Shown: positions 7,917 through 39,944 of the stretch, one piece after another
Layout: the number at the start of each line of letters is the position of its first letter
Position numbering within the stretch: the stretch's first letter is position 1
Assembly (NCBI GenBank): GCA_024663395.1
Contig: JANFAH010000007.1
Coordinates: 806,001 to 870,000, forward strand
From: Pisolithus tinctorius
Lineage: Eukaryota; Basidiomycota; Agaricomycetes; Boletales; Pisolithaceae
DNA: 64,000 nt
Reading direction: 5' to 3'
Notes under the pieces: generated by a model
Database searches by the model: none
What the model was told of the DNA's origin: nothing
What the model saw: only the letters and a program-made list of their open reading frames with translations
Program-made: the position numbers and the translations under genes

Positions 7917-7918
7917 GT

Positions 7919-13730: not shown

Positions 13731-14778
13731 CTACTTGGCCTCATCCTCCCCTTTGGTCTCCTCCTCTCTGTCCTTGCCATGGGCTTTTAGCCACTCAGCC
13801 TCCTTGCACAGCTTGTCGGAATCAAGCTCAGATGAGCCCAAGTCTGAGGGGGACACCACCATCCTGTACCCATAGGACTCATCAAGCAGCGACTTGAGAG
13901 CATCAGCAATGCAGCCTGAGTGTTTGACTGTGGCCTCTTGGAGTTCAAAGAGGCCTGCCAGGTTCTTGGCGATGAGCCCTGCAACATCGATAAGTTGCTC
14001 GAGTTTGTCTTCTAAACCTGAGAACCCCCCCGCACCAGTCTTCCTCACCCTGCTCCCACCGTCTTTGGGCTCATCGATCTCCAGCACCTCAGTCAGTTTT
14101 GACTTCACTTGTTTCTTCTGGCTGGGCCCGGGCTCAGGTGACTCCTCATCAGCCTTCCATTTCTTCCCCTTGTCAGCCTTGGTAGTGGCCTTGGGACCAG
14201 CCTTGGCATCTTTCCCATCCCCAGACCACTGGCACTTGCCTTTGGACTGGTTGCAACACATGCAGGCAACCCTCTTTTTGTTGCCATCCACAAGGAATTT
14301 GCAGACAACTTGAGCCTGGGCACAGCACGTGCAGCTAGAAAAAAATGTCAAGAGGATTATGCACAAGATGGGAGGTTACTCACCCAGGGTCCATAATCAC
14401 CTTTTTTACTTTGCTGGCCTTGCTACCACCAGCACCAGCTTTGGCCTCAGCCTTGCACTTTCACTCAGCCTCCTTCTCCTCCTCAGCTCTACACTTCTCC
14501 TCTTCCTTGTGTGCCCTCTCCTGTTCAGCCTCCTGTGCTGCCCTCTCAGCTTTGGCCTTCTCCCTCTCTGCCCTCTTGGCCTCAAGCTGAGCCTGTTCTT
14601 CCCACTGGGCTTGCTCAGCCACCTTGTGCCACTTCCTCTCTTTGGCCTTGGCCCTCATCATCTCCTCTTCATTGTCAGTGTCATACTTGATAGCATCATC
14701 CGACACCTGGGTCCAGTCAATCATGGCCTGGCCTTCACTGTTGTTGTTGGCTGTGGTAGTTGGTCTCAAAGTGGACAT
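13731..14778 (-). pseudogene. Antisense accessory gene of B1 (coiled coil plus Zn2Cys6-like cluster)
   Basis: Exon 1 (14778-14384) starts MSTLRP and is rich in Glu, Ala, Lys and Arg with a long predicted coiled coil. A 49-base GTGAGT...CTAG intron follows (14383-14335). Exon 2 (14334-13731) opens directly into a cysteine cluster (14333-14232) with spacing C-x2-C-x6-C-x12-C-x2-C-x6-C, the spacing of fungal binuclear zinc clusters. The rest is charged and ends at TAG 13731. Total 332 codons with one TGA (14461-14463). Its 3' end faces the chromodomain stop at 13551, 180 bases away. Function is unknown; DNA or RNA binding is an inference from the cluster. Confidence 0.72.
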
Positions 14779-14916
14779 GGTGGGTAGGATATGAAAGAAA
14801 GGATGCAAAGGGCTTAGCAAGCCACAAGTACCAGTTTTTTGAACTCAGCCAGTTTTCGGACTCAGCCCACCACCCTCGCAGGGGTCTCATGGGTTTGACC
14901 CCTAAGAGGGGGATAC

Positions 14917-15441
14917 TGTCATAGTCGTGCCTCAACCCTGGCCAGACTTGGCCTCACACTCACTCAGTCCGGCCTCAGCCTCGCCCGTCCCATATCTCCA
15001 GTTGGTCTAGTGCGGTGGACACTGCTTTGCAGTGTCTGTCACTTCAGTTAAGTCCTGCCTGGTCTTGTCCCCAGTCCACTCTGCCCCAGTCTCTGTCATC
15101 TTAGTCATATCTTACTAATACCTGTCTTACCAATCACCTTAGCAATCTTTGCAAGACTGGCATTACTGGTCTCCATACTATAGTTGTCTCTAGTATATAA
15201 ACTCATAGATACTTGGCCTGTACTCCTCAGTTTGAAATCAACAAAGTTTACTCTAGTAACCCTGTCTCAGCCTCAGACTCAGACTGAGACCCATGCAAGG
15301 GAATAGTGCTGTACTCTCAGTCACTAAGTCCAAATAGTCCAACCATCTGAATCCTCAACTTCACTCCTGATCCCAACCCCTTGGTCTTGTGCCTGCTTTG
15401 GTCTCTGGTCTGGCCTCAACCCGGACTTCCTGAACTTGACA
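14917..15441 (+). repeat. 3' LTR of B1
   Basis: 525 bases, TGTCATAGTC to CTTGACA, preceded by the polypurine tract CCCTAAGAGGGGGATAC. Followed by the TSD GTAAG. Confidence 0.9.
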
Positions 15442-15560
15442 GTAAGGCAGAACAACTCAAATGACACAGTCACATGACAATGATGCATGGACATACTTAT
15501 ACCTACATGAGTCACATCCTTAGGGGCTCACATTTTCTCCCCCCTTACTTCTTCTCTCCC

Positions 15561-16565
15561 ATGGATGACATGCTGCCAAACCCAAATTCTTCCAAGTCCA
15601 TTGTTGTCAAAGGCCATTAAAGCAAGAAAAGAAAGTAAGTACTAGTACATGCTACTCATATAATAGTACTGTGAGACTCTGGAAGAATTGAAGATGACCC
15701 AATGGTCATTTACTGTACCATGGGATGCCACCTCACTTATACTGTAGACATGTGTCTCCATTGTGTTTGGAGTTGGTATAGCTTGCAATAAGGGTGGAAC
15801 TCCTGGATTCCCATTGTAAGTTCATTGTGTGGTCAATGATGCCCCAGTACTCACCATATTGATGTTTCAAGGCCTGAGGATGACAAAGAATGCTTTCTCC
15901 AAACATATCAAGCCATCCTTGAAGCAGTCCCTGACTTGTCCAAAGCAATCGATGATGTGAATGGGCAAAAGCTTGAGGAAGCCCTCGAAATGGTAAGTCA
16001 TTCCATTCTCCATTCATCTAACTGCATATATGCACATTGTTTTAGGTCCAGGAAGGTGTTACCTGCTGCTGCACTGATGACTGTGGCTCCCTCAAATGGC
16101 CTGGTCTTAACTATGTTCTGCTCAACACATCTGCCCTCATGCCTTCCATTCCCCCAACTGACACTTCCAAGTCATTGTGTGGTTTCCACCATCCTCAACT
16201 AGTGCATCTCTTGTGTCTGCACAAGTACATTTCTGAATTTGACCAGAATTCAAACCAGTAAGTCACTCCAAGTCACTATCTTACAGCATACATGCTGACT
16301 ATGTCACATACTCACTCAGATACATAGACCATGTCTTGAATGGGGACCTCATTTTCAAAGTCTGGCTGCTACCATCATTCCTATACAACCAAACAAAGCC
16401 TTATAATCCAGATGACATCCGAGACGGTCTCTTCTGTGGCCATGTGTTGGTACACATAAGCCAAGTTCACCTGTGTTGCATTGATTGATCATTAACATCC
16501 TATTGGTAGCAGTTTTATAAACACATCTTCTGTGGTTGCTTGACTGCTGTGGGTGCCTCCACAAT
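15561..16565 (+). pseudogene. 5' half of a DUF6698-like host gene, split by a transposon
   Basis: Exons with good splice sites are about 15872-15992, 16046-16257, 16320-16449 and 16510-16565; a possible first exon is 15561-15634 (it contains a TAA). Phases agree at each of the last three introns. The translation contains GFHHPQLVHLLC, an YNPDDIRDGLFCG motif and a KHIF segment, which I recall from a widespread Agaricomycete family of unknown function (DUF6698). The reading frame continues at 20328 once the transposon and one AAT copy are removed. The region has very few CpG dinucleotides. The family name is recalled, not searched. Confidence 0.55.
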
Positions 16566-16910
16566 AGTGGCGCTCAAGGTGGCTTTGGAAGTGCTCTGGC
16601 AGCACTCTGGAAGTGCTCTGGAATCGCGCTGCTGCTGCTATAAAATTTGACTCCGACATGCCAGCACTGCTTGACTAGCAATACATGTAGTTACTTATCC
16701 TGGAAGATACATGTCAAATAACATATCAAACTCGCATTAATGCATTGTACATGATCGATAAACATCTACCCATCATTCAAGAGCTACCAGATGCCCCGGA
16801 AATCTGTCTGCCAAGATCTGCTCAAACAGCTGGACAAGACTAGCCTTCATGTTGCGATAGCAAGGCTTGAAAATGCATGACGTGGAGTTGACAGTAGCAG
16901 CTCAGAATCT

Positions 16911-18271: not shown

Positions 18272-18505
18272 TTTCGAACGAAGCTATTGGATCAGTTGTT
18301 TCAACATCTCGGACGGGAACGAACCCATTAATAGCAGTTGTGGGAGACAGTAGTATTAGCAAGATGAAAAAAATACATTCACCGTATGTACATCTTGCGA
18401 GAGAATAGCAGAAACACGAATATGATGCGAGTACATAGTGGGAACGCGCCGGAGATGGATACAGCGGGGAAGTGTGAGTAAAAACTTGGCCATGACAAGA
18501 TAAAC

Positions 18506-20124: not shown

Positions 20125-20327
20125 AGTTACAGAAGGCCTTCCTCAACAAGCTTGTCCACTCAATGAAGCCATGGGTTTTGATAAGAGTGTCTGCAGGCAA
20201 GCAGACCGTCGAGGGTGTCGTCGATAGGGAGGCATAATTTTCAAACTCCATCACGGCATTGCTCTCGAATTTGCCACTTCCAGAGCGCTTCCAGAGCGCT
20301 TCCAAAGCCACCTTGAGCGCCACTAAT

Positions 20328-21148: not shown

Positions 21149-21618
21149 ATGGGTATCTTCTGATCCCTTTTTGCTCCTTATCTCACTGACCATCACTTCT
21201 CAAGCAGATGCTGCAATCTTCCACATCTGTGCCATTACCCACTTGAGTGTTGTCTTTGCTCTGCCACCTTTTTCTCTCACTCATGCAAGTGCTCTCAATT
21301 GTTTCTGCTGTCCTGTTGCCTGCTTCATCCCATACTGTCCATTTTCTGCTGTCCATGGACCAATGTCATGACTGGATTTGCATGTAATGGGTGCAAAGCT
21401 GCAAAAAAAGTGCAGTAATAAACTTATAATCACATTGTAAGTTGAATATAATGCCTTACAGGGCCCTGTAAAGCTCACAAGATGTCGTCAGAGATGGCAA
21501 CCTTATAAGCCTCACAATGGGCTTATAAACTCATGAAAGGCTTATGACGGTCATGTGGGGGTACATAAGTCTTACAGGCTCCCGCCCAAAAGGGAGGTTA
21601 GTTTGCTTACAGGCCTTA
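21149..21618. other. Non-coding stretch with palindromes next to element C
   Basis: No gene is seen. The first 200 bases are probably 3' UTR of the split gene. From about 21419 there are clustered palindromes: TTACAGGGCCCTGTAA (21456-21471) and a hairpin TTATAAGCC/GGCTTATAA (21503-21511 and 21520-21528). After element C the same style continues (CCTTATAAGG near 47697), so C probably landed inside a small palindromic repeat. Confidence 0.45.
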
Positions 21619-21956: not shown

Positions 21957-22995
21957 CTAAGCAGCACCACCGGCGTTTTCCGCATCATCGCCCTGTTCCA
22001 TCGTGTCATCCTCGCCTTCTGCATCAGCCATGCCATCGTACCCTTCCTTGTATCCCTCCTCAAGACCATCAATGGCGATGTCAATGCCTACCGAGTCGAC
22101 CGTGACATTAGAGGGGTCATGAGCCAGATACCCAGCGGGATCAGTGAGTTTGCCAAAGGGTGGGATCGCATCCAAGGTGGTGGTAGAGGAACTAGCGATG
22201 GGAGTAGGCAAGCGCGAGCGGGTGCGTGTCTGGTGGCCTCCTCGGAATCTACTCGCCCTAGTGGTCTCCTGCCACTTACTCGAGTTGGACTTCTCAGTGC
22301 GACGATCCTCGAACATCGAGGAACTAGGGTGGTTGCCCAGGGGCCCCCTAGCGTGATGATCATCCTCTCTGCAACCATGGCGATCCTGGTACCCTTGTTG
22401 GAATTGCTCACGTTGTTGCTTGAGCCACTCTGCCACATCCCAGAGCATACTATTGAGCATCTCCGTCTCGGCACCATTAAGTACTTGTCCTCCCTCCCTC
22501 TCTTCCTTACTACACAGGTCCGTGTCTGTTCCCAAAACCTCCTTCTTAGTTGGAGCTGGGCCCGTGATGACTATATGAGCATTATCTCCCGGCTCGTAGT
22601 ATGCAAAGCATGACCGTGTGGTAGCATTGCAGTTGTAGGCCTCTCTAAACTGGAGGTATCCAGCAGGTACGTCGAGGGGGTCTCCTGTTTTATGACGCAA
22701 GGCTTTATCATATTGGAAGTAGGAGCGAACTTGCTCGCAATGGGCCAGGACATGATCCTCTGGGTTCCCTGATCTAGGGTCGCCCCAGATGACGAAGAAA
22801 TCAGGGTTAGCCCGCTCAATTGAATTATCTCCATCAACGTCTGACATGTTACCTGCACAGTGTTGTCTTGCGTCAGGTAAGGGGTTGATAGCTAGACTCT
22901 GGAGGTCACTAATGATGTCAAAGAGTGTGCAGTGGAGTCTCTCTGCAGAGTCAGGGCTTAAGTCCCGCAGTCTCGAGGGTCGGGATATCAAAGGG
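21957..22995 (-). pseudogene. C-terminal extension of the element C polyprotein
   Basis: About 345 codons continue in frame from the chromodomain-like part at 31090-30402 across the D insertion; the codon at the junction uses 30403, 30402 and 22995. There is no start codon of its own (position 22991 is TTG), so this is a tail, not a separate gene. It has a conserved-looking N-terminal part (DFFVIWGDPRSG), an Arg/Ser-rich middle and a strongly acidic end rich in Glu, Asp and Gly, and it stops at TAG 21957. No known domain is recognised. Confidence 0.7.
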
Positions 22996-23479
22996 TGTTA
23001 AGTTCGTGACTGGGGCGGGGGTCGAAGGTTAAAGGCCGAGCGCCGGGGGCAACAACCCTTGGTCTTAGCTCGTGCGCTAGACCCTTGCGCAAGCCGGGTT
23101 GAGGTCAGAGAAAGCCGAGGGGATCAGGAGCGAAAGCCGAGAGTCAACTCGGGCTTAAGCTAGGGACTTGGGTGAACTAAGTTGATATTCAGACTGAGGA
23201 ACTAAGTACAACGTACGTAGAGTATATATACCGAAGACCGGCAACCCGAAGGCCGATGTTACCGGTGAGGAACTAAATAGCTGTGCAAGGAACTAACTAA
23301 AGATTAAACGAGAAGGCGGGGATCGGAGAGCCGAAGACAGACACTGCCCTGGCACAAGCGAGGGTGGTACAAAGACTAACTAGAAAAGTATAGTAAGAAA
23401 ACAGACCTTGTCTCAGCATTCGGCATTGACCCGGCGTTCAGTACCTAAGACCGAACCGTGGGTTTCTCGGTATGTGACA
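22996..23479 (-). repeat. 3' LTR of element D
   Basis: TGTTAAGTTC to GTATGTGACA, 484 bases. On the minus strand the polypurine tract CCTAAGGGGGGGATAC lies directly before it (23480-23497). Confidence 0.92.
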
Positions 23480-23553
23480 GTATCCCCCCCTTAGGGTCGA
23501 GCCCTCGAGACCCGCCCTAAGGTACACGAGGTCGGCAGTTGCCGTGCCGACGG

Positions 23554-23563
23554 AACACGTGTT
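23554..23563. promoter_or_regulatory. AACACGTGTT palindrome upstream of the D accessory gene
   Basis: A perfect 10-base palindrome containing the E-box CACGTG lies 58 bases before the ATG at 23621. The same ten bases occur at 38685-38694 before the A2 accessory gene, and AACACGTGTC at the equivalent place in A4. It may be a bHLH-type binding site in the antisense promoter. Confidence 0.45.
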
Positions 23564-23620
23564 CCCCGGGGTTAAAAGGTGCATCTTTGCGAAGACTTGT
23601 TTTCTCCCGACCCCATCATC

Positions 23621-24724
23621 ATGTCTTCTACTCGTCAAGCCTCCCCGCGCGTACCCAACGACCCGACCGGCTTTCAGAAAGCCACCACACCCGAACTTCA
23701 GATCACCAGCGACGACGAGGAGGCCGACATCCAGGCCAAGATGGCCGAGCGCAAGCGGCGCAAGGCGTTGAGGGAAGAGGCCGCTCGGTTGGAGGCGGAA
23801 AGGCTCGAGAGAGAGCGACTGGAAGCCGAGCAGCGCGAGAGGGAGCGGTTGGAAGCCGAGCAGCGTGAAAGGGAGCGGGTGGAGGCCGAAAAGCGGGAGC
23901 AGGAGCGGTTGGAGGCCGAGAGGAAGGAGCAGGAGCGGGTGGAAGCCGAGCGCCGAGAACGGGAGGTCCAGGTGCAACAGAAGACAGGGGAGCCGAAGGG
24001 CAAGGCGCAGGCTACGAGTACCGGTGTTGCGAACACCATATCGTGTCGACAGTGCGAGAAGGGGCGGGTGCCGTGCACCTTTAGTTGCGCGCAGCAGAGT
24101 AAGCGCAAGAAGAGGACGTGTGACCGGTGCACCGAGATGAAGGTCAAATGTGAGTTGCCCGAGGGAGTGGAGCCCGAGATTGAAGAGGCTGGGGTAAAGG
24201 CCGGGAAGAAAAGAGCACCGGAGGATGTTACGTCGCCGAGGGCCGGGGAGAAGAAGAAAGTCACCCGAACCGAGTCTAGGGTGCCCGGTGAGTCGGAAGC
24301 CGGCCCCTCGGGAGTGGTTGCGCCCGCCACCGCCTCCTCCGACCCTCTGGTTGCGGCGGTGGTCAAAGGTTTTGAGCTGATCGCGGCAGCCATGGACCGT
24401 CAGACCGCCGAGATGCGAGCCGGGAGGGAGGCCCAGCGCCGATTCAACAGTCGGCTGGGTGATTTACTGGGTGAGTTCGAGTTCGCTCTTCGTCCGTCCA
24501 CCCCGTCGTCCGAGTCCAGCGAAGAGCTGCACTCGGACATGGCAGACCTGGAGCTCGAGAGCCTCCAGTCGGATCGCGAAAGAGCGGGGGTGGAGTTGGA
24601 CGAGGGGATCATGCGCCGGCCCGAGGACGTGCACATGAAGGGTCGGTGGTCTGACTCGGGGAGCGGGGAGGAAAAGGAGCTTCGGGCGAGCGATGGGGAG
24701 GTGTTCGAGGGGGACTCCGAGTGA
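23621..24724 (+). CDS. Antisense accessory gene of element D (coiled coil, Zn2Cys6-like)
   Basis: An open frame of 367 residues from ATG 23621; the upstream in-frame GTG at 23579 is less likely. Residues about 40-135 are a highly charged Glu/Arg/Ala coiled coil (repeats of [10 protein letters not shown] type). The cysteine cluster at 24044-24151 has spacing C-x2-C-x6-C-x14-C-x2-C-x6-C with a seventh Cys inside the long loop and many Lys/Arg, like GAL4-type binuclear zinc clusters. A second helical, acidic part follows. It runs against pol, and the two stops are 120 bases apart. No intron is seen, unlike in A and B. Function is unknown; a DNA-binding regulator or a nucleic-acid chaperone are possibilities. 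Confidence 0.75.
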
Positions 24725-24844
24725 AAACCGGTTAGGACCGAACGCCGATGTATGTACATAGTACTAGTGGAATGAACCGTCCTTTGGTATAGTAAGGAAA
24801 AACAAGAGTAAGGGAACAAGGGAGAAAGAAGAGAAAGGCATGTT

Positions 24845-27800
24845 TTAACTAGTGACTGGGCCGGGTTTACCGGGGTAGGCGGCATGAAATGCAGTGAGCA
24901 GATCTTCGGCATTACCCAGCTCGGTGGCCGGTAGCCAGGATGTTTCTTCGTCGGTGCCCTCGTAGCCAGCCCAGCGTACCAGGTACTGTAGCTTACACCT
25001 CCGTCGTCGGTCTACCTTTGAGTCGAGGATCTTGGCGATCTCGTACTCCGGTTCACTGTCGACCTCGACCGGAGGTGGTGGTGGCTGAGTTCGGTTCGGA
25101 ATGGTGTTGGGGTGTGCCGGTTCTAACTGTGATACGTGGAACACCGGGTGTACCGCACGCATGGAGTCCGGGAGGCGAAGGGTGAATGAGTGGGTGCCGG
25201 GTTGGGCTATTACCGGGTAAGGACCTAGGTTCTTGTCTGCGAGTTTCTGTGATGGTCTTGTGGTCCGGAAGTACTTGGCTTTGACGTAGACCTGGTCGCC
25301 GAGGTTGATCTCGGGCGCCGGTAGCCTTTTCGCATCTGCCGGACCTTGGTATCTGGCTTGGGCTAGTGCCATCTCTTCTCGTAGGAACTGGTGTAGTTCG
25401 TCTAGGTCCACGGCGTAGTCCCTAGCCCGTACCGAGGATAAGTCCCTTTTGGGGAAGACTGAGAGGTTAGGGTGGTAGCCCTTGTTGGCGAAGAAAGGGG
25501 AGACACCGGTGGTGGCACTCGGGGCATTGTTGTAGGCAAACTCGGCCAACGGAAGTAGCTCGGCCCAGTTGTCCTGTTGGTAGTTGCAATATACCCGGAG
25601 GTACTGTTCCAAGGTCTGGTTTGTTCGTTCGGTCTGGCCATCTCCTTCCGGGTGGTATCCAGAAGTGAAATGTAGGCGCATATCCAGCGCTTTACCCAAG
25701 GACCGGAAGAAGTGCGAGACGAATTCAGAGCCTCAGTCGGAGGTTACATGTGCCGGGACACCGTGTTTTGAGAAGACATGGAGTAGAAAGAGCTTAGCAA
25801 GCTCAGGGGAGGTAATAGTGTCGTGGGTGGGTATGAACACAGCCTGCTTGGATAGTCGGTCCACGACCACCAGGATAGCGGTGTGACCACCGGACGCCGG
25901 TAGGTGTTCAATGAAATCCATAGAAATGGAATTCCATGGTTTTTCCGGTATCGGCAGTTGTTTCAGGGTGCCATATGGTCGGTGTCTGGGTGTTTTGGCT
26001 CTCGCGCACGTAGTGCAAGACCTCACATACTCTTTGACGAAGGTGCGGACGCCAGGCCAGGTGTACTCTCGCTGGATCAGTTCCAATGTCCGATTCTGGC
26101 CGAAGTGTCCTGACAGTGGGTGATCATGCTTGTACCGAAGGACCTTGAGCCGAAGGTCGTTGGCATCTGGTACATAGATCCGGTTATCGAGGCGCAGCAG
26201 ACCGGTGCTGTCGACCGACCACCGAGGGTCGGAGGTGTCTGTAAGTCGGTGTTGGGACAGTGGGTCCGAGGGTAGTGCGGCGAGTATTTCGTTGTGGAGT
26301 TGTTCTACGTCCATTAGAAGGCTGGCACGTAGTACGGGGTACTCCAAGCATGTGGCGCGGAGAGCCGAGACCAACTGTTCTTGCGTGAACACCGGTCAGA
26401 GGTTGTGGGGGTTTGCCTGGGCATAGCCCCTATCCCCCTCTTTGGGGTAGACGTCCCATCGTCTAGTGAGAGCGTTGGGCTTAGCACCGAGCTTACCCGG
26501 GCGGAAACGGATGACGAGGTTGAACTGTGACAGGTACTCGGACCACCGGGCTTGCTGGCGTGTGAGTACCTTAGAGGTCGAGAAGTATTCGAGGTTTTTG
26601 TGGTCGGTGACCACATCAATGGGTAGAGGAGAACCCTCCAAGTAGTGTCTCCAGGCCTGGAAGGCCTCAAAGATAGCAAGCAGCTCCTTATCGTGGGTGT
26701 CATAGTTGAGTTCCGGCGCAGACAGTGTTCGGGAGTAAAAGGCGACCGGGCGAAGTTGGTTGTCTTCGCCGGTAATGGACAGTATGCCGGCGATGGCATA
26801 GTCCGAGGCATCGGTTTCTACTGTGAGTTGAGCGCCGGGAACGAAGTGAGTAAGGACAGGAGCGGTGGTGAAAGCTTCTTTGAGCTTATTGAAGGCTGAT
26901 CGGCACTCCTCGGAGAAGTTCCAGGGTATGTTTTTCTGTGTGAGGCGGGTCAAGGGGACGACGATGTCCGAGTAGTTGTAGATGAAGCGTCGGTAGAAGT
27001 TGGCGAAGCCTAGGAAGGATTGGATGTCCTTGACCTTCCGGGGCTCGGGCCAGTCGCAGACGGCTTTGATCTTTTCACCAGACATGGTGAGGCTGGTCGG
27101 CGAAAGACAGTAGCCTAGGTATTCTACCGATTCGGAATGGAACTCACATTTTTCCGGTTTGGCATACAGGCCATGTTTCCGGAGTCGGCGCAGGACCTCT
27201 TTAACATGCTGCCGGTGCGAGTTCTCGTCGTTGGAGTAGATGAGTATGTCGTCCAGGTAGACCATGACGCACACGTCTAGGAGGTCGGCGAACACTGTGT
27301 TGACGAAGCGTTGGAACGCCGCCGGGGCGTTGGACAGGCCGAAAGGCATAACAAGCCATTCAAAGGACCCATACCGAGTGCGGAACGCGGTTTTCCATTC
27401 ATCACCATCGGTGATCCGGACCAGGTGATATGCGTGTCTGAGGTCGATTTTGGTGTAAACCTTGGCCCGGGATGGCGAGTCTAGGAGGTCGGTGATGAGG
27501 GGAAGTGGGTATCGGTCCTTTTTGGTGATCTTGTTCAAGCCCCGAAAGTCGACACAAAGCCGAAGGGAGCCGTCCTTCTTTTTGACAAAGAGGACCGGCG
27601 CTCCGTGGGGGGAAGAGGTCGGTCGGATGAACCCGGTGGTCAGATGCTCGTCTAGGAAGGCCCGGAGAGCTTCAAGCTCTACCGGTGACAGGGAGTAGAT
27701 AGGGCCGAGGGGTGGTGATGAGTCTCCTTCCAGCTCGATCTTAAGATCGTGTTCTCGGTGGGGTGCTAGGGTAGTGGCTTTGGATTTACTGAACACGTCG

Positions 27801-28501
27801 GCATACTCATGGTACTCCGGTGGAACGCCGGAGAGGTTCGGTGCGTCTTCTACTTTTGAAGACCGAAGGGAGGTGAGGGCCGAGGGATGAAGCTGGAGGC
27901 TGAACTGAGAAGACCCTTCAAGTTTACATGCCTGGACATAGGCTGCGGCATTGATGAAGGCGATAGGTGGGCAAGTCAAGCCCGGTGCAACCGGTTTCTC
28001 TAATTGCGGGGTCAGGGGGTGACGTCGGGGGGTCTGGCACTCGTTGTACAGGCGTCTGGAATCTAATACTGCTCGAGACCCAGTCAATCGACGGATTGTG
28101 TTGGGTGAGCCAGTTGTATCCTAAGACTGCCTTGCACTCGGAGTCCAGCGGGGTTGCATAGAGGGTGACCGGGGTTGCATTGCCGGAGGGAAAAACGAAG
28201 ACGAGGTCTGCTGCCTGGGTGATGACCGAGTTGGACGTGCCGTCAAACAGCCGAAGCTGGACCGGCGGGACGGAGTAAAGGGGAGCAGAGATTTTATTTG
28301 CAAACTTTATATCTATAAAACAGTGCGTAGAGCCGGAGTCGACGAGTACTGGGAACGCCGGCTCGTCGTAGGATGCTAGAGAAATGGTAGGCATAAGACT
28401 ATTCGGGTTACAAAGAGCGGACGCGTTGAGCTTAACCTCCGAGAGCACACCACCGGAGTCAACGCGGTCCTCGGGGTGTGCGAGGTTATGAGGACCGCCG
28501 A
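24845..28501 (-). pseudogene. Pol of element D: protease to chromodomain
   Basis: Protease (VDSGSTHCFID near 28340), RT (MVYLDDILIY near 27260), RNase H (ETDASDYAI near 26810), integrase (SMDFIEHLP near 25915; TSD near 25735; DGQTERTNQ near 25640) and chromodomain (YLVRWAGYEG near 24985) are all recognisable. A frameshift lies in the protease/RT linker (about 28000-28087). TGA codons stand at 26396-26398 and 25733-25735; family B has CGA at the second position. The catalytic residues of RT, RNase H and integrase are kept. It would need only three repairs to be open, in line with its young LTRs. Confidence 0.9.
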
Positions 28502-28511
28502 CTATTTTTTT
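28502..28511 (-). other. Gag/pol -1 frameshift site of element D
   Basis: On the minus strand seven A bases (28511-28505) precede the gag stop TAG (28504-28502). The -1 frame is open from there into the protease (EVKLNASAL). Confidence 0.65.
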
Positions 28512-29872
28512 GCCTCGGTGGAGGCCTCCAGTGTGGCTTCCGGAGCTGCCGCAGCTGCTCTAGCTTTGGCCACCTTCTTGGGGCATTCCTTGGCTACGTG
28601 ACCATCCCCTCCACAGAACATGCAGAGCTTTAGGTCGAAACGTCGCTTTCGCTTGGCAGCCGTTAACTTTCCGTCCTTGCCGAGTTTGTTGCTGGCTGTT
28701 TCGGGCTTTGAAGACCCGGCGTTGGTACTGCCGGTCTTTGGTGTAGCGGGGGACTGGGAGGTGTTGGATGCCGAGGTTTTCCCTTTGTCGGTGTTTGAGT
28801 CTCTATTGCCAGTCTTTGACGAGTTCTGGTTACTGGAAGACCGGCTCTGACGTTGGACCTCCTCGCGTCGTTCCCAGTAGCGAGCGTCTATGTCCTGGGC
28901 TAGGCGACGAAGGTCTTCAAGGGTGCGGGGTTTGCCTACCCGGCTTATCTCGTCTTTGATTCGGTCGGGAAGACCGGCATAGAAGAAGTGGCGGAGGGCC
29001 CCGTCGCCGTAACCCCGGACCTGGGTAGCTAGCCTGTTGAACTCGACCATGTATTTGTTGATACGGTGGGTTTCTTTCATGGTTAGGTGGTCGAGCTGGT
29101 TCTCGGCTTCTGCTACCGGGTCATGGGGGCCGAAGGTCGACTGGAGTTCGACGACAAACTCGCGCCAGCTATCCATCCACAGGGGTCGGTCCTCAGGTTC
29201 GCCGGTGAGAAGGAGGTCCGGCTCGAACCATTCGAGTGCCATTCCCTTGAGGTAGGATTGGGCGAAGGTTACCTTTCGGCGGTCGTCGCGGAAAGTTCGG
29301 GGTTTGTTCTGGAAAGTCAACTCGCACTGGACGAGGAACTGGCGAAGCTTCTTTGGGTCTGTGCCATCGAAGGTGTCTGGTTCTCGGACCTTGGCTGATC
29401 CTGAGCTTCCTTCAGTGTCTCGGCGGGAAGACCGGGCGAGGGACTGTACGGCCCTGGCGAGGCTGTCTAAGACCCTCAGTTGCAGGTTTCCTTCAGTTTC
29501 CTCGTGTTCACCTTCCTCGGGATTAGGCCCGAAAGGATCATCGTTGTTATCATTGTTGTCATCACTGGAGTGATGGTCAGAGTCGTCCGGGTCGTCGTCA
29601 CCATCACCTCTGGGGTTACCAAAGGGAGCGGGAGGTCGACGACCGGCTGGTGTTGGTGTACCTCGGTCGTTGGAAGCCGGTGCAGTACCGGAACGACGGG
29701 CTGAGAATCCTTGGAACTGCTGCACGACCGCAGAAGTCCGGCGGTGACTGGCGAGGGAACTGAGGGCCGACTGGCGGCGAAGGTCGTTTGAGGTTTCGGG
29801 TTGGGTTGGTCTCGAAGCAGAGGCAGATTCTAAAGCGCGGTCTGCTCGAGCTTGGGTGCGAGTTCTGGTCAT
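28502..29872 (-). CDS. Gag of element D
   Basis: Intact, 456 residues, starting MTRTRTQARAD 41 bases inside the 5' LTR. It has an Asp-rich linker (about residues 90-125), a capsid segment (EPDTFDGTDPKKL, LKGMALEWFEPD), a DARYWERR motif and a zinc knuckle CMFCGGDGHVAKEC near the C-terminus. It packages the element RNA in the cytoplasmic particle and, by -1 frameshifting, is the N-terminal part of Gag-Pol. Confidence 0.9.
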   Translation of the reverse strand: MTRTRTQARADRALESASASRPTQPETSNDLRRQSALSSLASHRRTSAVVQQFQGFSARRSGTAPASNDRGTPTPAGRRPPAPFGNPRGDGDDDPDDSDHHSSDDNNDNNDDPFGPNPEEGEHEETEGNLQLRVLDSLARAVQSLARSSRRDTEGSSGSAKVREPDTFDGTDPKKLRQFLVQCELTFQNKPRTFRDDRRKVTFAQSYLKGMALEWFEPDLLLTGEPEDRPLWMDSWREFVVELQSTFGPHDPVAEAENQLDHLTMKETHRINKYMVEFNRLATQVRGYGDGALRHFFYAGLPDRIKDEISRVGKPRTLEDLRRLAQDIDARYWERREEVQRQSRSSSNQNSSKTGNRDSNTDKGKTSASNTSQSPATPKTGSTNAGSSKPETASNKLGKDGKLTAAKRKRRFDLKLCMFCGGDGHVAKECPKKVAKARAAAAAPEATLEASTEAKK

Positions 29873-29899
29873 GGGTGATAAGTGACTTGCACAAGTGGA

Positions 29900-29910
29900 A
29901 GTCTGAATAT
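29900..29910 (-). promoter_or_regulatory. Self-priming site of element D
   Basis: On the minus strand ATATTCAGACT starts two bases after the 5' LTR and is fully complementary to AGTCTGAATAT within the LTR (30112-30102), which lies about 35 bases after the TATA box and is the inferred transcript start. This is a Tf1-like fold-back primer of 11 base pairs. Confidence 0.8.
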
Positions 29911-29912
29911 AC

Positions 29913-30396
29913 TGTTAAGTTCGTGACTGGGGCGGGGGTCGAAGGTTAAAGGCCGAGCGCCGGGGGCAACAACCCTTGGTCTTAGCTCGTGCGCTAGACC
30001 CTTGCGCAAGCCGGGTTGAGGTCAGAGAAAGCCGAGGGGATCAGGAGCGAAAGCCGAGAGTCAACTCGGGCTTAAGCTAGGGACTTGGGTGAACTAAGTT
30101 GATATTCAGACTGAGGAACTAAGTACAACGTACGTAGAGTATATATACCGAAGACCGGCAACCCGAAGGCCGATGTTACCGGTGAGGAACTAAATAGCTG
30201 TGCAAGGAACTAACTAAAGATTAAACGAGAAGGCGGGGATCGGAGAGCCGAAGACAGACACTGCCCCGGCACAAGCGAGGGCGGTACAAAGACTAACTAG
30301 AAAAGTATAGTAAGAAAACAGACCTTGTCTCGGCGTTTGGCATTGACCTGGCGTTCAGTACCTAAGACTGAACCGTGGGTTTCTCGGTATGTGACA
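29913..30396 (-). repeat. 5' LTR of element D
   Basis: 484 bases, nearly identical to 22996-23479. A TATA box (TATATATAC) lies near 30140 on the minus strand, ahead of the conserved CTC|AGT start. Confidence 0.92.
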
Positions 30397-30401
30397 AAGG
30401 G

Positions 30402-33400
30402 GGAGTATCTGACCGACAAGCTTGCTTGTTCTGATGGTGAGAAGGGTTGTAGCTCCTGCAGCGAGATTGGGTGCGACACCGATGGTTATTTGAGTTTGGG
30501 CATCTATTGCTGAATCTCTGGTGATAGCAACTTGGTGTACGACAGTAGTTGTGGCAGGTATAGGTTCTGTGCAGGCCAGTACGATGATTAGCACGAGGAC
30601 CCACGCAACGAGGATGAACTTGGGGCGAGTATGAGGGTTGATGAGGACGAGCACAATGATTGGGAAGACAAGTGTGGTGGTGTGGGCGAGGTTGAGTGCT
30701 GGTGTTGGCATGGTGGTTTCGAGGTTGTGATGATTTGGCCAGAGGGGGATTCCGGTATGCGGGTTGAGTTCTACAATTGGGACATCGGCGGCTTAAATGG
30801 GCCCTGCAGGTATGCAGTGCCAAGTGTCCTAAAAACACCTGGGGGTCGTCATCCAACAAACCCCTGTCACCTGCGTCCTTCAATTTCTCAATCCCATCAA
30901 CCCCAATGGCCTCGAAATAATCGGTAAGCACTTTCAGATGCACAATCTCATCATATGGTAACCACGTTCGGTCGCCAGCTGTCCACTGGACCTCGAACGA
31001 TGCCTCGGAATGGCTGCTGCGGTGTCTTATTATTCGATCGACAGACCATTCACGGCTTGTTCCTCTGAACTCTGGGACCTGGTTGTCCATTTGGCCAGGG
31101 AATTTTCAGTCATCGTTAGGTATGTGCACTCTCAGTAGTGATGCATGGAACACATCATGAATACCCCTTTGCTTTAGATTATCGGGCAATGCAATGTGAT
31201 AAGAATTATTACCAAAGTCGTCTGAGATTCGGTAGGGTCCAATAAATTTCAGCACTAGTTTTCATGACGTCCCCTTTGACAGACTGATATTCTTTGTAGA
31301 GATGTATACGAGGTCCCCTGTAGAGAATGGACATGCCTGGCGCTTTTTATTAGCGCCTCCTGTCTGCTTCACTCGAGCTTTAAGAATGGCATCATGAGCG
31401 TCCAATAAGGTCAGCTTCATTTTATTAGCAAATGCTCGTACACTCGGGTACTCATCCCTCGTAGGAGCATCCCATATCATTCTGCGAGGCATCCATCCTG
31501 TATTCAAGAAGAAAGGTGCGTATCCAGTCGATTCTGACATCGCATTGTTGATGGTGAATTCGATCACAGGAAGTCTCGACACCCAGTCCTTTTGGTTTGG
31601 ACCAATACAACATCTTAGCATTTGGCTGATCATTCGGTTGGCGCACTCCGTAGCACCATCAGTCTCAGGGTGGTAAGCACTTGACATTTTTTGCCGTATT
31701 CCGATTAGATCATTCAGATGTTTCCAGAATGCACTTGTGAATAAAACATTGCGGTCACTGATAATCGCCCGAGGTAACCCATGGTGTTTATACACCTCAG
31801 CGAACATTAATTCTGCAACCTCGCGGGCGGTGTAAGTCGTTCTGCTTGGTATGATGTGTACCATGGACGTTAATAGATCTATGATCACAGTTATCGAATC
31901 GTATTCTCCGTCACGATCCTTGGACTCTGGGAGAGGTCCAACAAAGTCGACTCCAATTGCTTCCCAAGGCTTCGATGGTACGGACAGTGGGTTTCACAGT
32001 CCAAACGGTTTATGGGTAGGGGGTTTACTTTGCTGACATGTCTGGCATGACATACAGAAGGTGGTGATGTCTTTCACCATGGAATCCCACCATAGGAACT
32101 CGCATATATATGACACAGTCTTTTTGGCACCCAGGTGGGCTAATAGGGAGTGGGCATGGTCGATGACAGTTTCTCTAAGCCGTTTCCTGTTTACTTCAAT
32201 GTCCGGTATGCAAAAGACGGTACGATCTGGGAGTTTCAAGCTTATGAATCCATCAGGCGTGATCTCAAAGTTTTTGAAAGCCTGTGGCTCATCAATTATT
32301 TGCTTGAAAAACAGGTCTTTGTCATACTTATGTTGGGCTGCCTTAAGCACACCCTCGTTCCCTGGGTATACAACTAATGGGACATTCGTTACTGTGGTAG
32401 TAGAGTCATTCACGTGCGATGCGTGTTGATCCACGCTTGGCAATACATGTGTGTTCTGCAACGTGTCTGCATTGGGTGCATCATGTGTACTTGCAGTAGG
32501 GGATCCACTGTCCTTCCCCCCCTTCCTTCGTTTGCCTGGGCCCAGCAAGACAAAGCAATCTTTCATCCTACAAGCAAACTCGATGCCCATTTCTGGTCGA
32601 CCCATTTCCGCTGGAGGTGTAGGAGAGCGACAACGTCGAGTAGTCACTTTCTTCTGGCTGGTTTGACCAGGTGCGTCTATCACAGCACCATCCTTATCTC
32701 TCTCTCCACTGATCACAGGTGGACCCGGGGTTTCCATCGCAGGTCTTCCCGCATCCTCAGTAGGTGCGGATGCCGCCAATGGAGGCCTCATGATCAACTT
32801 CACTCGACACACTGGAGGTTTCTCCGTACTTCCAACGGCAGGGACAGGCTGTTGCTCATGTTCACGTTCACTCTGCATATGGGATCTAGTGGAGATCGCC
32901 ATCGCCTCAACACCAACGTAAACCGGTGCGCTGATGATTTGCTCATCCCTTTGCGTTTCTGCTGATTCCTCGACATCTAGGTCGTGGTGCAAGTATTCAC
33001 CTGGCGCGTGGATCGTCCCGGGTGCATCAAACTTGTACATCCTGGAGAGAGCATCAGGAAGGACATTTTCCACACCCAGTACATACTTGATATCGAAATC
33101 GAATTCAGCCAATTTTTCTAACCAGCGTGCCTGTCTTCCGGATAGGTCCTTTTGTTCCAACAGGTACGTCAAACTCTTGTGATCGGTTACCCATGTGAAA
33201 CTCGTTCCTTGCAGGATGTCGCAATGTCTTAACATCGTCTCGACCCCTGCGAGGAGTTCCTGCTCATGTACTGGGTAATTCCATTGTGCTGACGACATTT
33301 TTGCAGAATAGAAAGCAGCAACTTTCGCTGACTTCCAGTCCATTCCCTGTGCAATCACACCACCTATGCCATTTCCACAGGCATCTGTCATTACCCAGAT

Positions 33401-35071: not shown

Positions 35072-37822
35072 TCAAAACACTCCTTTAGTGTGCCAGTGGA
35101 CAACATCAAAATCAGGGATCGCGGTCTTGCTCGAGGGGAGTTCAAGCCAAATGCCCAGGTGATAATCAGATATCAGGAAAGTTGCAACATCTTTCTTATC
35201 ACACTCAAATCGATCTACATTCCCTCTTTCCAGGATCTGAAGTGCATGGTCTTGAAGTTTGGTGACAATCCGTTCCTCGACTGGATATCCCATCGAGGTC
35301 GAAGCCCACTTCCTATCCCTTTCTAGGTTTTGTATCTCCGTCGCAGTGAGACCTAGGCTCTGGCCCTTCTTAATCCAATACCAGCAGTCAATCCAAAACG
35401 TCGGGTCTGCCAGTAGGTGGGTTTCGATCAAGACTCTATCCTCTGGACTCAACACATCCCTTTCACTTTCCACGATCATGTGTCGACTGTCCTTCAAATC
35501 ATAAACAAGGAAACGAGTGTCCATATAGGTACGTAGAGAATCCAGATCGTCCCCTGGGTAGCATATCCCTGATAATAGTTCCCTAGTGCGATCCATGATT
35601 GGCTCGCCTATTCTGGTTTCCAGCCACTGACTTTCTCATATCTGACGATTGGAGTAAGCATATATCATTATCCCATCATTGGGGCCCTCGCCATCGGTAG
35701 TGACTCCATCACTGGTATCGTACTCGTCATCATCTGAGACACTCTCCAGATCAGGAAAGTTGTTCTCGGGTTTGTTTTCATCGTCTTGGACCGTAGGTCC
35801 CCTGGTCTGAATGAAATTCACTAATACTTCGTTGTCATTTTCGGTTGATCTGGCTAGCTGTCGCTGGCATTCGACATCCCTGAAGTCTACATTCACCCCA
35901 AAGCTAGTAATACCTGGAGGTTTGCCTGATGAAGACATGGTATGTCTATCAGGACAGTTCCTGGAGAAATGTCCGGACTTATGACAGATGAAACAAAGTC
36001 CCTCTGCCATATGGCGCTCCCGCTCTTCTTTGCTCAGTTTAGGATTATCGTGCTTTCACTTGTCCTGGTTTCTCGCACATCGTCCCCCATTCTTGACAGG
36101 TTCAGCAGGTGCGGGGTCCCTTGTCATCCCCTCGCCCTTGTATCTCCTCTTGCAGGTGCGATGTCACCTGTGCCTCAGACTTTCAGGGTCCCCTGCTGAG
36201 ATGGCTGTGCTTTTGACGGTACGTTTGTTACTTCATCGTCTTCGCGACTTATGGGTGTAGTCTCCAGTTATGGATTGCGCGATCTCAAGAATCTCTGTGG
36301 ATGCTACAACTTTCTTCAGTGTCGAGACCTCCAGGTTCAGTTTCTCCCTCCACAGGTCGCGCTGAAGTTCTTTTTGTAGACCTGACCAGAACTTATGTAC
36401 CTTGGTATGTTCATTGGTCTCTCTGATCATATTCCAGATTTCATTGAGCTCATATAGATAGTTTTTCACTGTTTTAGAGTTTTGATAGCAAGATTGTAGT
36501 TTCTCCCACTGATGCATTCGGAAGTCAATGGGGAAGCAATAGTTAAACAATTCCATAAAGAAATCCGATAACCTCCACTTGTAGGGATCTCCAGACACTT
36601 TGCACACGTAGAACTCATGTGCCTTTCCCGTTAGGTAGTGCAACAAAATAAATGCACGCTTCTTAGTCTCCACACAACCATCTTCAACATATGCAGTTCC
36701 TTCTGTTACGAAATGATGGAACACATGAGGGTTGTCTGACCTGTTGTACTTCGTGGGTGGGATTGGTTTTAGCATCATCTTCTGACATGATCAGGATCTC
36801 TTCTTCAATTTATGTGATTGGCGACTATGGTTTCTTTGCCGCTTGGACTGCCCTCGCCATCGATGTTCTCGCAACCTACTAGAGTCATCTGAGGACATAC
36901 TGGGGCTTGAAAAGCTGCCAGATGTGCTCAAAGTGTCGTCTGAGCTCAAAGTCGAATCATCATTACTCGAGCTGCTAGGATCTGAGCTCGGGTCGTCACT
37001 TGAGGAGCTGATTTCAGAATCATCGCTCAAACTACGGTCAGAATCGCTATCATCGGATGATTCGCATCGACGAGAGGACTTATGTTTCCTCTTTGTCCTG
37101 CTGGTGCATCTCTCATCCTTCTCGAGTCGCTTGAATGCCAACCCGATATAACTTTTGGGATTAATTTGTTTCACAGGTTCCATAGCTTTTGGAGTCTTTT
37201 GTCGCTTGCACCGTTTATGGTCCTGACACACAACCCTATCGACCATATCCTTTACAGGATTGGGAGGAACCTTGGGTGGCTTCGGTACAGTTCTCCTATC
37301 CTTAACCCTTTGTTTTGATCTTTTCTTTTCTGAAGTTCATTTGGGGTGATCGTTAGCCAGGTTCTGGGAAGCATCTTCGTCGTTCAACGTGACACCTTCC
37401 TTAACGGCCTTTTGTGAGGGCCCAGGTGGGTCATCATTCCCTTCATATGCTAGCTTATTTGCAACGTTCCAGGATGCGAGAGCAGCGCATTGCGCTTCTG
37501 GGTCCATCTCCCCATCGCTAAGGTCCAAGTCCCCCCAGTTCCTTGGGTCAGGTCCCTTCCCTTTATGATTCTCGGTGATTGGTGGCTCATTGCCTTCCGT
37601 CGTGGGGCTGTCAAGGTTATTCCTCGTCAGGGACAATGATCTTCTTCAGATCCTGTCCCATTCTTCTGGGGTCAGTCATCTTTCGGCCTTTCGGACGATG
37701 TCTCTCTGATCAGACCTCAGCATACTGTGAGCGCATTGTTCACATGATCGTCTTCGCACTACTTCCGTCCAATCACCTTGCTCGACATCTACTTCACTTG
37801 CAGGAAAGATGGAGTCGCATCG
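35072..37822 (-). pseudogene. Gag part of the element C polyprotein
   Basis: In frame with the upstream piece at 47268-46738 once A2 and one CATCG are removed. Parts in order: an acidic region (37636-37340), a Ser/Asp-rich low-complexity stretch (about 37080-36880), the capsid domain (36778-36236; FHHFVTEGTAY, FWSGLQKELQRDLW), a zinc knuckle CFICHKSGHFSRNC near 35990, and a spacer of unknown role before the protease. Eight in-frame TGA stops lie between 37678 and 35636 and one at 35072; no frameshift was found. Confidence 0.8.
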
Positions 37823-38536
37823 TGTCAAGTCCGGGCCTACTCTGACCAACTCCGACGCTAAACAAGGTCTAGAGGAGGGTCCGGAAGCAAGTCCGACACA
37901 GAAGAACAGAACTCCGACTAGCGGAGTGTTGGCAGGAACGAAGACCGCCGAGACAAAGGCGGAGCAGAGTGAGGGCGTCGGGTTTAGCTCGTGCGCTACC
38001 CCCTTGCACGATCTCAGCCCTCGTATTTCAGAGGGAGAGTACAGACAGAGAGTCGGAGATAACTCCGACAGGCAGAAGACAGAGTCAGAGGGAGTAGGAA
38101 CTAAGTTGATATTCATACTGAAGAACAGCAGAGTACAGTACATGCTCTTATACTGCTATGGAGGTACAGTAACCGGAATCGGAACTGACATACGGAGACT
38201 CATAAATTTTCAAGTAAAATTTCCTGGACGATGAATGAAGGGTAGACAGAGGACATACGAATGGGTAACACAGAACATCCAGAAAAGGAAATAGTCCAGG
38301 CGCTGGACCATGCGGTGAGCGCGCTGCGGAGTACCTGACTGCGAAGGTAATCACATGACCCCTCAGAGAACGGTCCGCTCGGTCCGACAGGAGAGAAACA
38401 CAAGTCTGACAGCAGTCGGAGTGGAGACGGTTCGCAACCAACAGAAGTCGGGCGGAGTTGGTGCGGAGTGAGTGAATGACCGGCGGAGTAGGGTGCAGAG
38501 TGTGTAGGGACTTATAACGAACGCACAGTCGTGACA
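37823..38536 (-). repeat. 3' LTR of A2
   Basis: TGTCAAGTCC to GTCGTGACA, 714 bases. On the minus strand it is preceded by the polypurine tract CCCTAAGGGGGGGGCAC (38537-38556). Confidence 0.93.
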
Positions 38537-38586
38537 GTGCCCCCCCCTTAGGGCCTGAACCCCTGAAGGCCGCATGTTCGGGACGA

Positions 38587-38604
38587 GATCAACACGAGTT
38601 GATC
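38587..38604. promoter_or_regulatory. Conserved hairpin near the A2 polypurine tract
   Basis: GATCAAC-ACGA-GTTGATC forms a 7-base-pair stem. It is kept in A4 (about 55887-55904) and, apart from loop changes, in A1 (about 2920-2940). It lies between the polypurine tract and the start of the accessory gene. Role unknown. Confidence 0.4.
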
Positions 38605-38684
38605 ATTTGAAATTATTTTGATGCCTCGAGGATGATGGCTTTAGCCACGGCGGAGCTCCATTGGAGTTCGAAGTACTGCTTAAA

Positions 38685-38694
38685 AACACGTGTT
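38685..38694. promoter_or_regulatory. AACACGTGTT palindrome upstream of the A2 accessory gene
   Basis: Identical to the palindrome at 23554-23563 in element D, although the surrounding sequence is unrelated. It lies 37 bases before the ATG at 38732. Confidence 0.45.
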
Positions 38695-38731
38695 AGGGTA
38701 CCGAACCTTCGTACCTTCCTCCCTCACCACC

Positions 38732-39944
38732 ATGTCCTCTCAGCGCGAGAACACAACCCCCCAGCCAACCCCAGGCCACTCCCGCGACTACTCCCAAGTC
38801 GCGGACGACGTGCTGGTCGTCCTTACCGATGACTCGACCGACACCGAGTGCGAGAAGAACGCGGAGAAAGCACGTCGGCGAGCGGAGGCGGAGCAGAAAG
38901 AGAAAGAGCGCAAGGCGGAGCGCAAGGCCAAACGGGAGCAGGCCAGACGACGAAAGGTGGAGGAGGCGCGACTGGAGGCGGAGCGGAGACAGAAAGAAGA
39001 GGAGGAAGCGCAGAGGAAGAAGGCGGCGGAGGAAGAGGCCGAAAGGCAAAGGCAGAGAGCCTCTCAGGAGAGGGCCCAGGCCAGGCGGGATGAGGCCGCG
39101 CAAAGGTGAGTGACAGAATCCTACGAGCCAGGCGGAGCTGACTTGTATTTTTTATTTCAGGTTAAGCAGCGCAGTCTATGACGTCAACACCGCCCAGAGG
39201 GTCCCTGGGACCTCTGTGGTGGTCACCGTGACCAGGCGGCCCCCTTGCACTCGCTGCATAGCGAGTCTGACGGCGGGTCAGTGCAAGCCAGGGCAAGGTA
39301 AGACCAGGGCTTGTGTGCCCTGCCACAACAAGAAGAAGACCTGCAGCTGGACGCGGGAAGAGGTGGCGGCGGGACCCTCGCAGAAGAGGGCAGGGACAGG
39401 AAGCTCCCGAGGGGAGAAAAAGAAGAAGCCGCGAGGGAAGGGGAAGGCAAGAGCGACGGAGACGGAGGAGGCTGACGACGAGCGGGAGGCAGGCGGAGAA
39501 GACGACGAGCCAGCGACCCCGCTCGAGGGTCCCTCAGGCACGGGAGTCCACACACGGTGGGCGGAGTGGGAGCGGGAAAGACAGCTGCAGGCCATGGAGA
39601 AGCAGGCCGAAGCGCACGAGGTAGCTGCGCTGGCCTTCGAGAGGATGGCAGAGGCAGCGGAGTGGATGGCGGAGGCAGCGGAGAGGACTGCCGATGAGTG
39701 GGGGATGTACTGCGCATGGGCGGAGTGGGCAGAGATGAGGAGAAGGGAGGACGCGCGAGAGGCCAGAATGGCTGAGCTCGAGCGCACAGGCGGAGGATGG
39801 AAGAGGCCTCAGTCGGAGGCGGCGGAGGACAAGAACGAGGAAGCGGATGAAGGTGCGGAGGGGGATAACGAGGAAGAAGTCGAAGGAGAGCAGGAAGGTG
39901 GTGAAGAACAGGAGGGTGGCGGAGAACAAGCGATGGAAGAGTAG
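38732..39944 (+). CDS. Antisense accessory gene of family A (copy A2, open, one intron)
   Basis: Exon 1 is 38732-39105, intron 39106-39160 (55 bases, GTGAGT...TTTCAG) and exon 2 39161-39944; spliced it encodes 385 residues. Residues about 50-124 form a Lys/Arg/Glu coiled coil. The cysteine cluster (39246-39344) has spacing C-x2-C-x8-C-x9-C-x2-C-x6-C. Then come an SRGEKKKKPRGKGK basic patch, an alanine-rich helix (repeats of AEAAEWMAEAAERT type) and an acidic, Gly-rich tail. The stop is followed by a T-rich tract (39953-39987). It converges with pol, which ends at 40149. The gene being open while pol is broken may be chance or may reflect a separate role. Function unknown. Confidence 0.75.

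Follow-up and report, generated by a model that had tools for sequence, protein, structure and literature searches.

An antisense gene with a zinc-type cysteine cluster between pol and the 3' LTR in three families of Ty3/Gypsy elements of Pisolithus tinctorius

Antisense genes between pol and the 3' long terminal repeat (LTR) are already known in retrotransposons, namely in the plant elements Grande and Retand and in the fungal element Boty. Here we report that in a 64,000-nucleotide stretch of the 92.5-Mb Pisolithus tinctorius genome (assembly GCA_024663395.1, contig JANFAH010000007.1, positions 806,001 to 870,000; hereafter the window) three element families, A, B and D, carry a convergent antisense gene in the interval from the end of pol to the 3' LTR, coding for a protein with a coiled coil and a cluster of six cysteines.

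The fungal gene, brtn, is reportedly the subject of work by Zhao et al. (2011) on Boty-like elements, and among retroviruses HBZ of HTLV-1 is a spliced, coiled-coil, basic zipper protein. The available sections of the sources place brtn of Botrytis cinerea on the antisense strand between pol and the 3' LTR (PMC7264820; brtn of Boty-like elements also appears in PMC8365987) and describe Boty as a fungal Gypsy element with a CHROMO domain in its gag-pol (PMC4227169), as in the present case; the host there, however, is an ascomycete, and the likeness drawn here is one of description. Plant genes of the aORF-3R type (Grande gene23, RIRE2, Retand TRP28, PvRetro13 ORF2) share position, convergent orientation and presence in most copies with ours, but the sections at hand give them TRP28 or SMC domains or no known domain, and mention no six-cysteine cluster (PMC7264820, PMC11963269). 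The same sections describe some of these proteins as nuclear or predicted to bind DNA, and Grande gene23 as having its own promoter (PMC7264820, PMC11963269); the functions of antisense accessory genes of LTR retrotransposons are called yet unknown (PMC7264820, in part). HBZ and other retroviral antisense genes also lie near the 3' LTR and act as nuclear regulators (PMC11963269, PMC10186651, both in part), but HBZ has no zinc cluster. No account of a Zn2Cys6-type antisense retrotransposon gene appeared among the open-licence literature matches listed, nor in the available sections of PMC3411680 and PMC10799480. A preliminary description of the window knew of antisense genes in retrotransposons but of no account of a GAL4-like cluster gene in this place; the place itself is not new, and the novelty lies in the cluster type as far as that literature goes. 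The gene models in the window are as follows.

38732..39105, + strand: family A antisense gene, exon 1, which codes for the N-terminal motif and the coiled coil
39106..39160, + strand: family A intron, predicted, phase 2, 55 nt (GTGAGT...CTGAC...TTTCAG)
39161..39944, + strand: family A antisense gene, exon 2
39246..39344, + strand: family A six-cysteine cluster, C-x2-C-x8-C-x9-C-x2-C-x6-C, retained by all 15 copies counted
14384..14778, - strand: family B antisense gene, exon 1, interrupted by one in-frame TGA (14463-14461)
14335..14383, - strand: family B intron, predicted, phase 2, 49 nt, directly before the first cysteine
13731..14334, - strand: family B antisense gene, exon 2
14232..14333, - strand: family B six-cysteine cluster, C-x2-C-x6-C-x12-C-x2-C-x6-C, 161 of 162 cysteine cells kept in 27 copies
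23621..24724, + strand: family D antisense gene, a single open exon of 367 aa
24044..24151, + strand: family D six-cysteine cluster, C-x2-C-x6-C-x14-C-x2-C-x6-C, 114 of 114 cysteine cells kept in 19 copies
1590..3060, - strand: second family A gene copy (region read), broken, with the cluster at 2194-2292 intact
56000..57330, + strand (approximate): third family A gene copy, with four internal stops, one of them within the cluster

All three genes have the aORF-3R placement, on the strand opposite to pol, and their proteins follow one plan, in which an N-terminal motif and a coiled coil come before the six cysteines, and a basic stretch and an acidic tail after them. The antisense frames and cysteine spacings of the preliminary description were recovered; the in-frame TGA listed for the B gene of the window is a correction to it. 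The gene was also said to be open in D and in a copy called A2, which is right if A2 is the 38.7-kb copy (38732-39944), where no internal stop was found; the other two A copies are broken, the one at about 1.6-2.9 kb by several stops and a frameshift (the latter judged by eye). The intron that A and B were said to share before the cluster is in phase 2 with a GTGAGT donor in both, with TTTCAG or TTCTAG as acceptor and a CTGAC-type branch region in A; in B it abuts the first cysteine and in A it lies 28 residues upstream of it. Its length varies from 46 to 56 nt in 29 of 30 B loci, the window copy included (the other, L050, is without a donor), and from 54 to 77 nt in 16 A copies (the window copy and 15 others, each with donor and acceptor), and the flanking exons hold one reading frame throughout, which is the pattern that splicing predicts. 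The majority of aligned B-type gene models share the same exon join; the splice-site search covered GTRAG-type donors, so that other kinds of donor would go undetected. Start, splice signals and cysteines all fit the antisense strand, and the intron signals are sensible only on an antisense transcript.

The gene is frequent in the genome. The matches listed number at least 112 for the D protein, a list that takes in B-type and free-standing relatives, at least 150 for B exon 2 and at least 147 for A exon 2, all of them counts of fragments. When B elements were instead located by the end of their pol, at least 95 of 150 places had the gene 172-315 nt downstream of pol in convergent orientation, a lower bound that covers family B, and no same-strand gene was found within 2.5 kb at any of the 150; three of the remaining 55 have a match in the D search (lists compared by eye). 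The coding sequence is thus conserved in most copies, as in aORF-3R genes, judged by these B places together with cysteine retention and the substitution ratios that follow.

Purifying selection acts on the antisense frame. The ratio of nonsynonymous to synonymous substitution rates (dN/dS; pairwise NG86) was estimated over 27 B, 19 D and 15 A copies, after omission of L050 and exact duplicates in B (29 to 27), one duplicate in D (20 to 19) and the broken A copy at 1.6-2.9 kb, with exon 2 alone used for two A loci (L058, L059). The pooled values are 0.159 in B, 0.225 in D and 0.190 in A, far from the value of about 1 that the preliminary description had named as the mark of a by-product. With CpG-type changes masked they are 0.125, 0.147 and 0.141, and the codon-bootstrap intervals of the CpG-masked ratio of nonsynonymous to synonymous differences (pN/pS) are 0.146-0.219 in B, 0.147-0.248 in D and 0.145-0.227 in A. 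These copies were gathered by protein similarity, among the best matches, and are biased toward conserved copies; the pol-based ascertainment of B is the sole check of another kind and is silent on dN/dS. The C-terminal part of pol at the same loci gave similar values, 0.132 in B (23 copies) and 0.220 in D (18 copies), or 0.051 and 0.086 with CpG masking, so that by the masked measure pol is under more constraint than the antisense gene. Median dS is about twofold higher in the antisense gene than in the pol end (B 0.74 vs 0.39, D 0.59 vs 0.23), and this doubling may reflect recombination between subfamilies or a different constraint.

In B and D no other of the six frames has so low a pN/pS or so few stops as the antisense frame: there pN/pS is 0.227 in B and 0.307 in D, against 0.325 and 0.421 in the reverse frame that shares third positions, and stops per copy are 0.41 vs 1.74 in B and 2.00 vs 3.32 in D. 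Cysteines were retained in 365 of 366 cells over 61 copies of the three families; a seventh cysteine in D is kept in only 3 of 19. The claim that the frame is a real gene, beyond what chance would leave, is in this way borne out. In each family CpG-masked pN/pS is at its minimum in the cluster (A 0.084, B 0.081, D 0.098), vs 0.15-0.24 for the N-terminal and coil, post-cluster and C-terminal segments; the unmasked value of the B cluster, 0.198, is not below that of the 12 preceding residues (0.167). One result speaks against constraint on each copy, namely that at dS below 0.1 the ratio rises to 0.61 in B (2 pairs), 0.65 in D (4 pairs) and 0.38 in A (4 pairs). Such a rise is expected under decay after insertion, and selection therefore seems to act on source lineages and not on every single copy. 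In-frame stops arose most often by a change from CGA to TGA (12 of the 19 stops in A, 10 of the 13 in B and 15 of the 39 in D; 37 of 71 in total), a sign of CpG decay. This pattern would fit cytosine methylation of the elements.

The preliminary description held the plan to be older than the families, and comparison of full-length alignments with hhalign agrees: B and D match at E 1.8e-15 and A and B at 1.6e-12, over N-terminal motif, coil and cluster. The A-D match is weaker (E 4.2e-7) and stops short of the cluster, five reversed controls gave 1.2e-4 or worse, and A exon 2 alone compares weakly (A-B 4.7e-5, A-D 0.011). Judged by these profiles, the shared plan is one of homology, a single gene in three families. 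Their reverse transcriptase regions are 63-74% identical, vs about 29% for element C beside D. The pol of family A has the domains of a chromovirus, a chromodomain Ty3/Gypsy element (Pfam RVT_1, RT_RNaseH, Integrase_H2C2, rve, SH3_Tf2-1 and Chromo, the last at 31.5 bits with a cut-off of 25.1); B and D have RVT_1 and RNase H, D additionally SH3_Tf2-1, and Chromo was not matched in the pol pieces scanned of either, the end of B pol lying outside the scan. Twenty chromodomain loci outside these families were sampled from at least 150 PF00385 places listed, and in the 2.3 kb read at each no open six-cysteine frame was found on either strand; the pattern demanded an open frame, and decayed genes would escape it. 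Nineteen of these loci look like elements and one (L079) has a motif like that of a host CHD-type gene. Given this absence and the adjacency of gene and pol in B, the gene seems to be the property of a single clade of chromodomain Ty3/Gypsy elements, so that elements with and without it coexist in one genome. A protein search with the whole of D (best 8000 candidates scored) gave 38 matches, 23 in Pisolithus and 15 elsewhere, and three of the latter that were examined look like coiled-coil matches; with residues 136-345 as query all 21 matches are from Pisolithus. The B protein had 175 matches, the best 120 of which are all from Pisolithus, and a search of viral_contigs with the B alignment returned 49 pattern matches and no relative.

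The six cysteines had been called a GAL4-like cluster. The form of Zn2Cys6 clusters in PROSITE is C-x2-C-x6-C-x5-12-C-x2-C-x6-8-C; B fits it (6/12/6), while D has a linker of 14 and A an x8 first half. LEU3 and AlcR, both Zn2Cys6 proteins, have two C-x2-C-x6-C halves as do B and D, and both halves can be aligned, but in exchanged order. Against 177,635 PDB sequences the D cluster had one match up to E 10, AlcR at E 0.0082, with the second half of D paired with the first of AlcR and the first of D with the second. A free-standing relative (see below) gave the same crosswise match at E 0.041 with two weaker unrelated ones, and B matched LEU3 crosswise at E 0.42, ahead of 11 other weak matches, thanatin and PUT3 among them. 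Ungapped scoring of B, D and the free-standing relative with the cysteines left out preferred the swapped order against both LEU3 and AlcR for all 26 B, all 18 D and the one free-standing sequence, vs a preference for the straight order in the control of LEU3 against AlcR (13 vs -11); the scored halves are kin and are not independent trials. The basic half, which comes first in canonical Zn2Cys6 proteins, by this scoring does not do so in these three. The cluster of B, D and the free-standing relative may thus be a Zn2Cys6 module with its halves exchanged. The swapped order would be a new observation of the present analysis, and no permuted zinc cluster is described among the open-licence literature matches listed; if real, it would mean that this pseudo-symmetric cluster tolerates permutation.

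Several results count against such a cluster. Whole proteins and cluster fragments both miss the Pfam Zn_clus cut-off (PF00172, 21 bits): D has 10.6 and the first B-type protein 13.2 bits as whole proteins, the fragments have 18.9 (B), 15.1 (D) and 11.8 (A), exon 2 of window A and B has no match, and 12 of 39 B-type rows match at E up to 1, the best at 0.022. Half-clusters searched alone, as six pieces, matched Pfam once, with the second half of D at profile positions 2-14, a scarcity that probably comes from HMMER filters. The swapped-half matches are individually weak, with domain E-values of 1 to 83 and none significant alone; B is negative against AlcR in both orders (mean -6.4 swapped, -14.0 straight); and in PDB the A cluster matched no Zn2Cys6 structure and the B alignment profile found no zinc cluster. 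AlphaFold2 modelling of a B-type protein, a check the preliminary description had called for, gave a confident helix at about residues 41-110 and a confidence of about 50 in the cluster (mean pLDDT 59, pTM 0.26), the helix in favour of the coil and the confidence against the cluster. What stands of the GAL4 comparison is a likely DNA-binding role; a plain GAL4 type it is not, with the halves apparently swapped in B and D and a best Pfam score of 18.9 bits.

Open relatives of the gene, 52-55% identical to D, occur free-standing at the ends of three contigs with telomere repeats (loci L064, L085, L089 and L090).

C2:2594-5356: two relatives in tandem, 2.6-5.4 kb from the contig end
C45:476-1537: a single relative, 0.5-1.5 kb from the contig end
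C55:373400-376162: two relatives in tandem, 6.0-8.7 kb from the contig end

No pol match was found in C2:1-11000, C45:1-4000 or C55:374390-382131. Tandem partners differ by dS 0.52 and dN 0.19 (dN/dS 0.37), effectively one comparison. Two decayed copies of the block on other contigs (C23 and C42; L091, L092) retain a chromodomain-like remnant in element layout (36% identity, E 4.9e-8), and the 5' region of the block resembles that of family D by eye. For these two reasons the subtelomeric genes look derived from an element and kept beside telomeres.

At the inner edge of the 3' LTR the elements share a conserved box, which the sense RNA can fold into a stem-loop and which is immediately followed by the polypurine tract (PPT).

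38552..38571, - strand: family A inverted repeat beside the PPT, arms GGCCT/AGGCC, folding as GGCCU-UCAGGGGUUC-AGGCC
14881..14902, + strand: family B inverted repeat beside the PPT, arms GGGGTC/GACCCC, folding as GGGGUC-UCAUGGGUUC-GACCCC
23494..23513, - strand: family D inverted repeat beside the PPT, arms GGGTC/GACCC, folding as GGGUC-UCGAGGGCUC-GACCC
2955-2974 and 55852-55871: further PPT-side inverted repeats in the window

The stem-loop of 20-22 nt, with similar loops in A, B and D, was present in 59 of the 65 examined copies (38 distinct sequences), and at three of the five stem pairs A departs from B/D through changes on both sides (by eye). A genome search with a 36-nt B form, allowing 3 mismatches at most, gave 284 occurrences, and none for the pattern reversed. 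The box might act as a site for a protein, as a structure in the RNA or as a signal for priming.

The safest claim is that of a selected antisense accessory protein gene. The cluster is rich in K and R and strongly basic, K/R motifs are present and the C-terminus is rich in D and E; coil, zinc-type cluster, basic stretches and acidic tail together probably make a nuclear DNA-binding regulator, a role also put forward for plant antisense proteins (PMC7264820, PMC11963269). No bZIP match appeared among the Pfam matches of the D and B-type proteins (A exon 1 was outside the scan). VANDALs are DNA transposons. VANC of Arabidopsis VANDAL elements, an analogy only, is an element-encoded protein acting on noncoding regions of its own family, but its targets are tandem repeats (PMC10398659, in part). 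We put at an even call that the gene is an accessory gene inherited in one chromovirus clade and encodes a DNA-binding activator or anti-silencing factor with a half-swapped cluster. A promoter in or beside the 3' LTR would drive the antisense mRNA, spliced in A and B; the intron can persist because the RNA that is retrotransposed is the sense strand. The protein would dimerize through the coiled coil, enter the nucleus through its K/R-rich stretches, bind element DNA with the half-swapped cluster and, with the acidic tail, activate element copies in trans or oppose their silencing. That no DNA site common to A, B and D was found except the PPT-side box is a further difficulty for it. A CGGn4CGG direct repeat seemed enriched in the noncoding ends of B and D and was rejected, being absent from A ends and from the window B copy, with non-independent copies elsewhere. 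On the doubtful side, in our judgement, is a more specific scenario, in which the clade evolved a sequence-specific half-swapped Zn2Cys6 protein, made from a spliced antisense mRNA, that binds noncoding element ends in trans and counters host silencing as VANC does, with copies of the gene later fixed free-standing beside telomeres. With strong selection, many copies and a domain that suggests a test of zinc and DNA binding, the gene offers a favourable case.

The preliminary description had left regulation, RNA binding and silencing antagonism side by side, and we infer no more than that each could apply. HBZ represses HTLV-1 sense transcription and truncated Gag limits Ty1, and the protein might likewise be a negative regulator limiting the copy number of its own element. 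The anatomy is that of an LTR-proximal antisense nuclear factor, and selection and position fit either sign; the high copy number (the gene in at least 95 B elements, at least 147 A exon matches) argues against it without being decisive, and we consider it unlikely. Activation or anti-silencing is our first choice over repression because of that copy number and the VANC analogy; the evidence does not separate them. Binding of the genomic RNA of the element, for example at the PPT-side stem-loop, as an export, packaging or priming factor, is less likely again: the strongly basic cluster and the covarying stem in all three families suit it, but the best zinc-protein matches of the B and D clusters in the structure database are DNA-binding transcription factors, and the stem-loop may act in plus-strand priming with no protein involved.

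A captured host transcription-factor gene, still in host use or returned to it, with the subtelomeric genes as its ancestral or domesticated form, would explain why intact relatives lie at the telomere-bearing ends of three contigs, in tandem on two of them, with no pol match in the stretches read and a dN/dS of 0.37 between tandem partners, in effect one comparison. We hold it to be improbable, given the chromodomain-like remnant in both decayed internal copies of the block and its D-like 5' region. Antisense transcripts of LTR elements can regulate as RNA (PMC7264820, available sections), and if that alone mattered the protein would be a by-product; the low dN/dS of the coding frame and the nearly invariant cysteines make this very improbable. 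Least credible of all is that the sense strand is truly coding and the antisense frame its shadow. The sense strand has long open frames too and pN/pS is lowered in the reverse frame sharing third positions, but that frame has more stops and a higher pN/pS than the antisense frame in both families, and the start, the splice signals and the cysteines all point to the antisense strand.

The elements that carry the genes in the window are delimited as follows, and the closest catalogued proteins of the window genes, among the matches listed, are from P. tinctorius and P. orientalis.

37823..46732, sense strand -: family A element, 38-46 kb copy, LTRs 37823-38536 and 46019-46732, target-site duplication (TSD) CATCG, LTR pair differing at 22 of 714 nt
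7419..15441, + strand: family B element, LTRs 7419-7916 and 14917-15441, flanking 5-bp repeat GTAAG
22996..30396, - strand: family D element, LTRs 22996-23479 and 29913-30396, TSD AAGGG, LTR pair differing at 7 of 484 nt
55-63 kb: third family A element, LTRs 55123-55836 and 62549-63262, TSD AAAAC

Element D is flanked by 22991-22995 and 30397-30410, and to the eye the right side (AAGGGGGAGTATCTGAC) looks like the PPT and LTR start of a further element. A host-like open frame with NPHP3_N/NACHT domains lies at 48846-50774 on the + strand, directly followed by another open frame (50775-52931, + strand) with about 14 tandem repeats of 129 nt.

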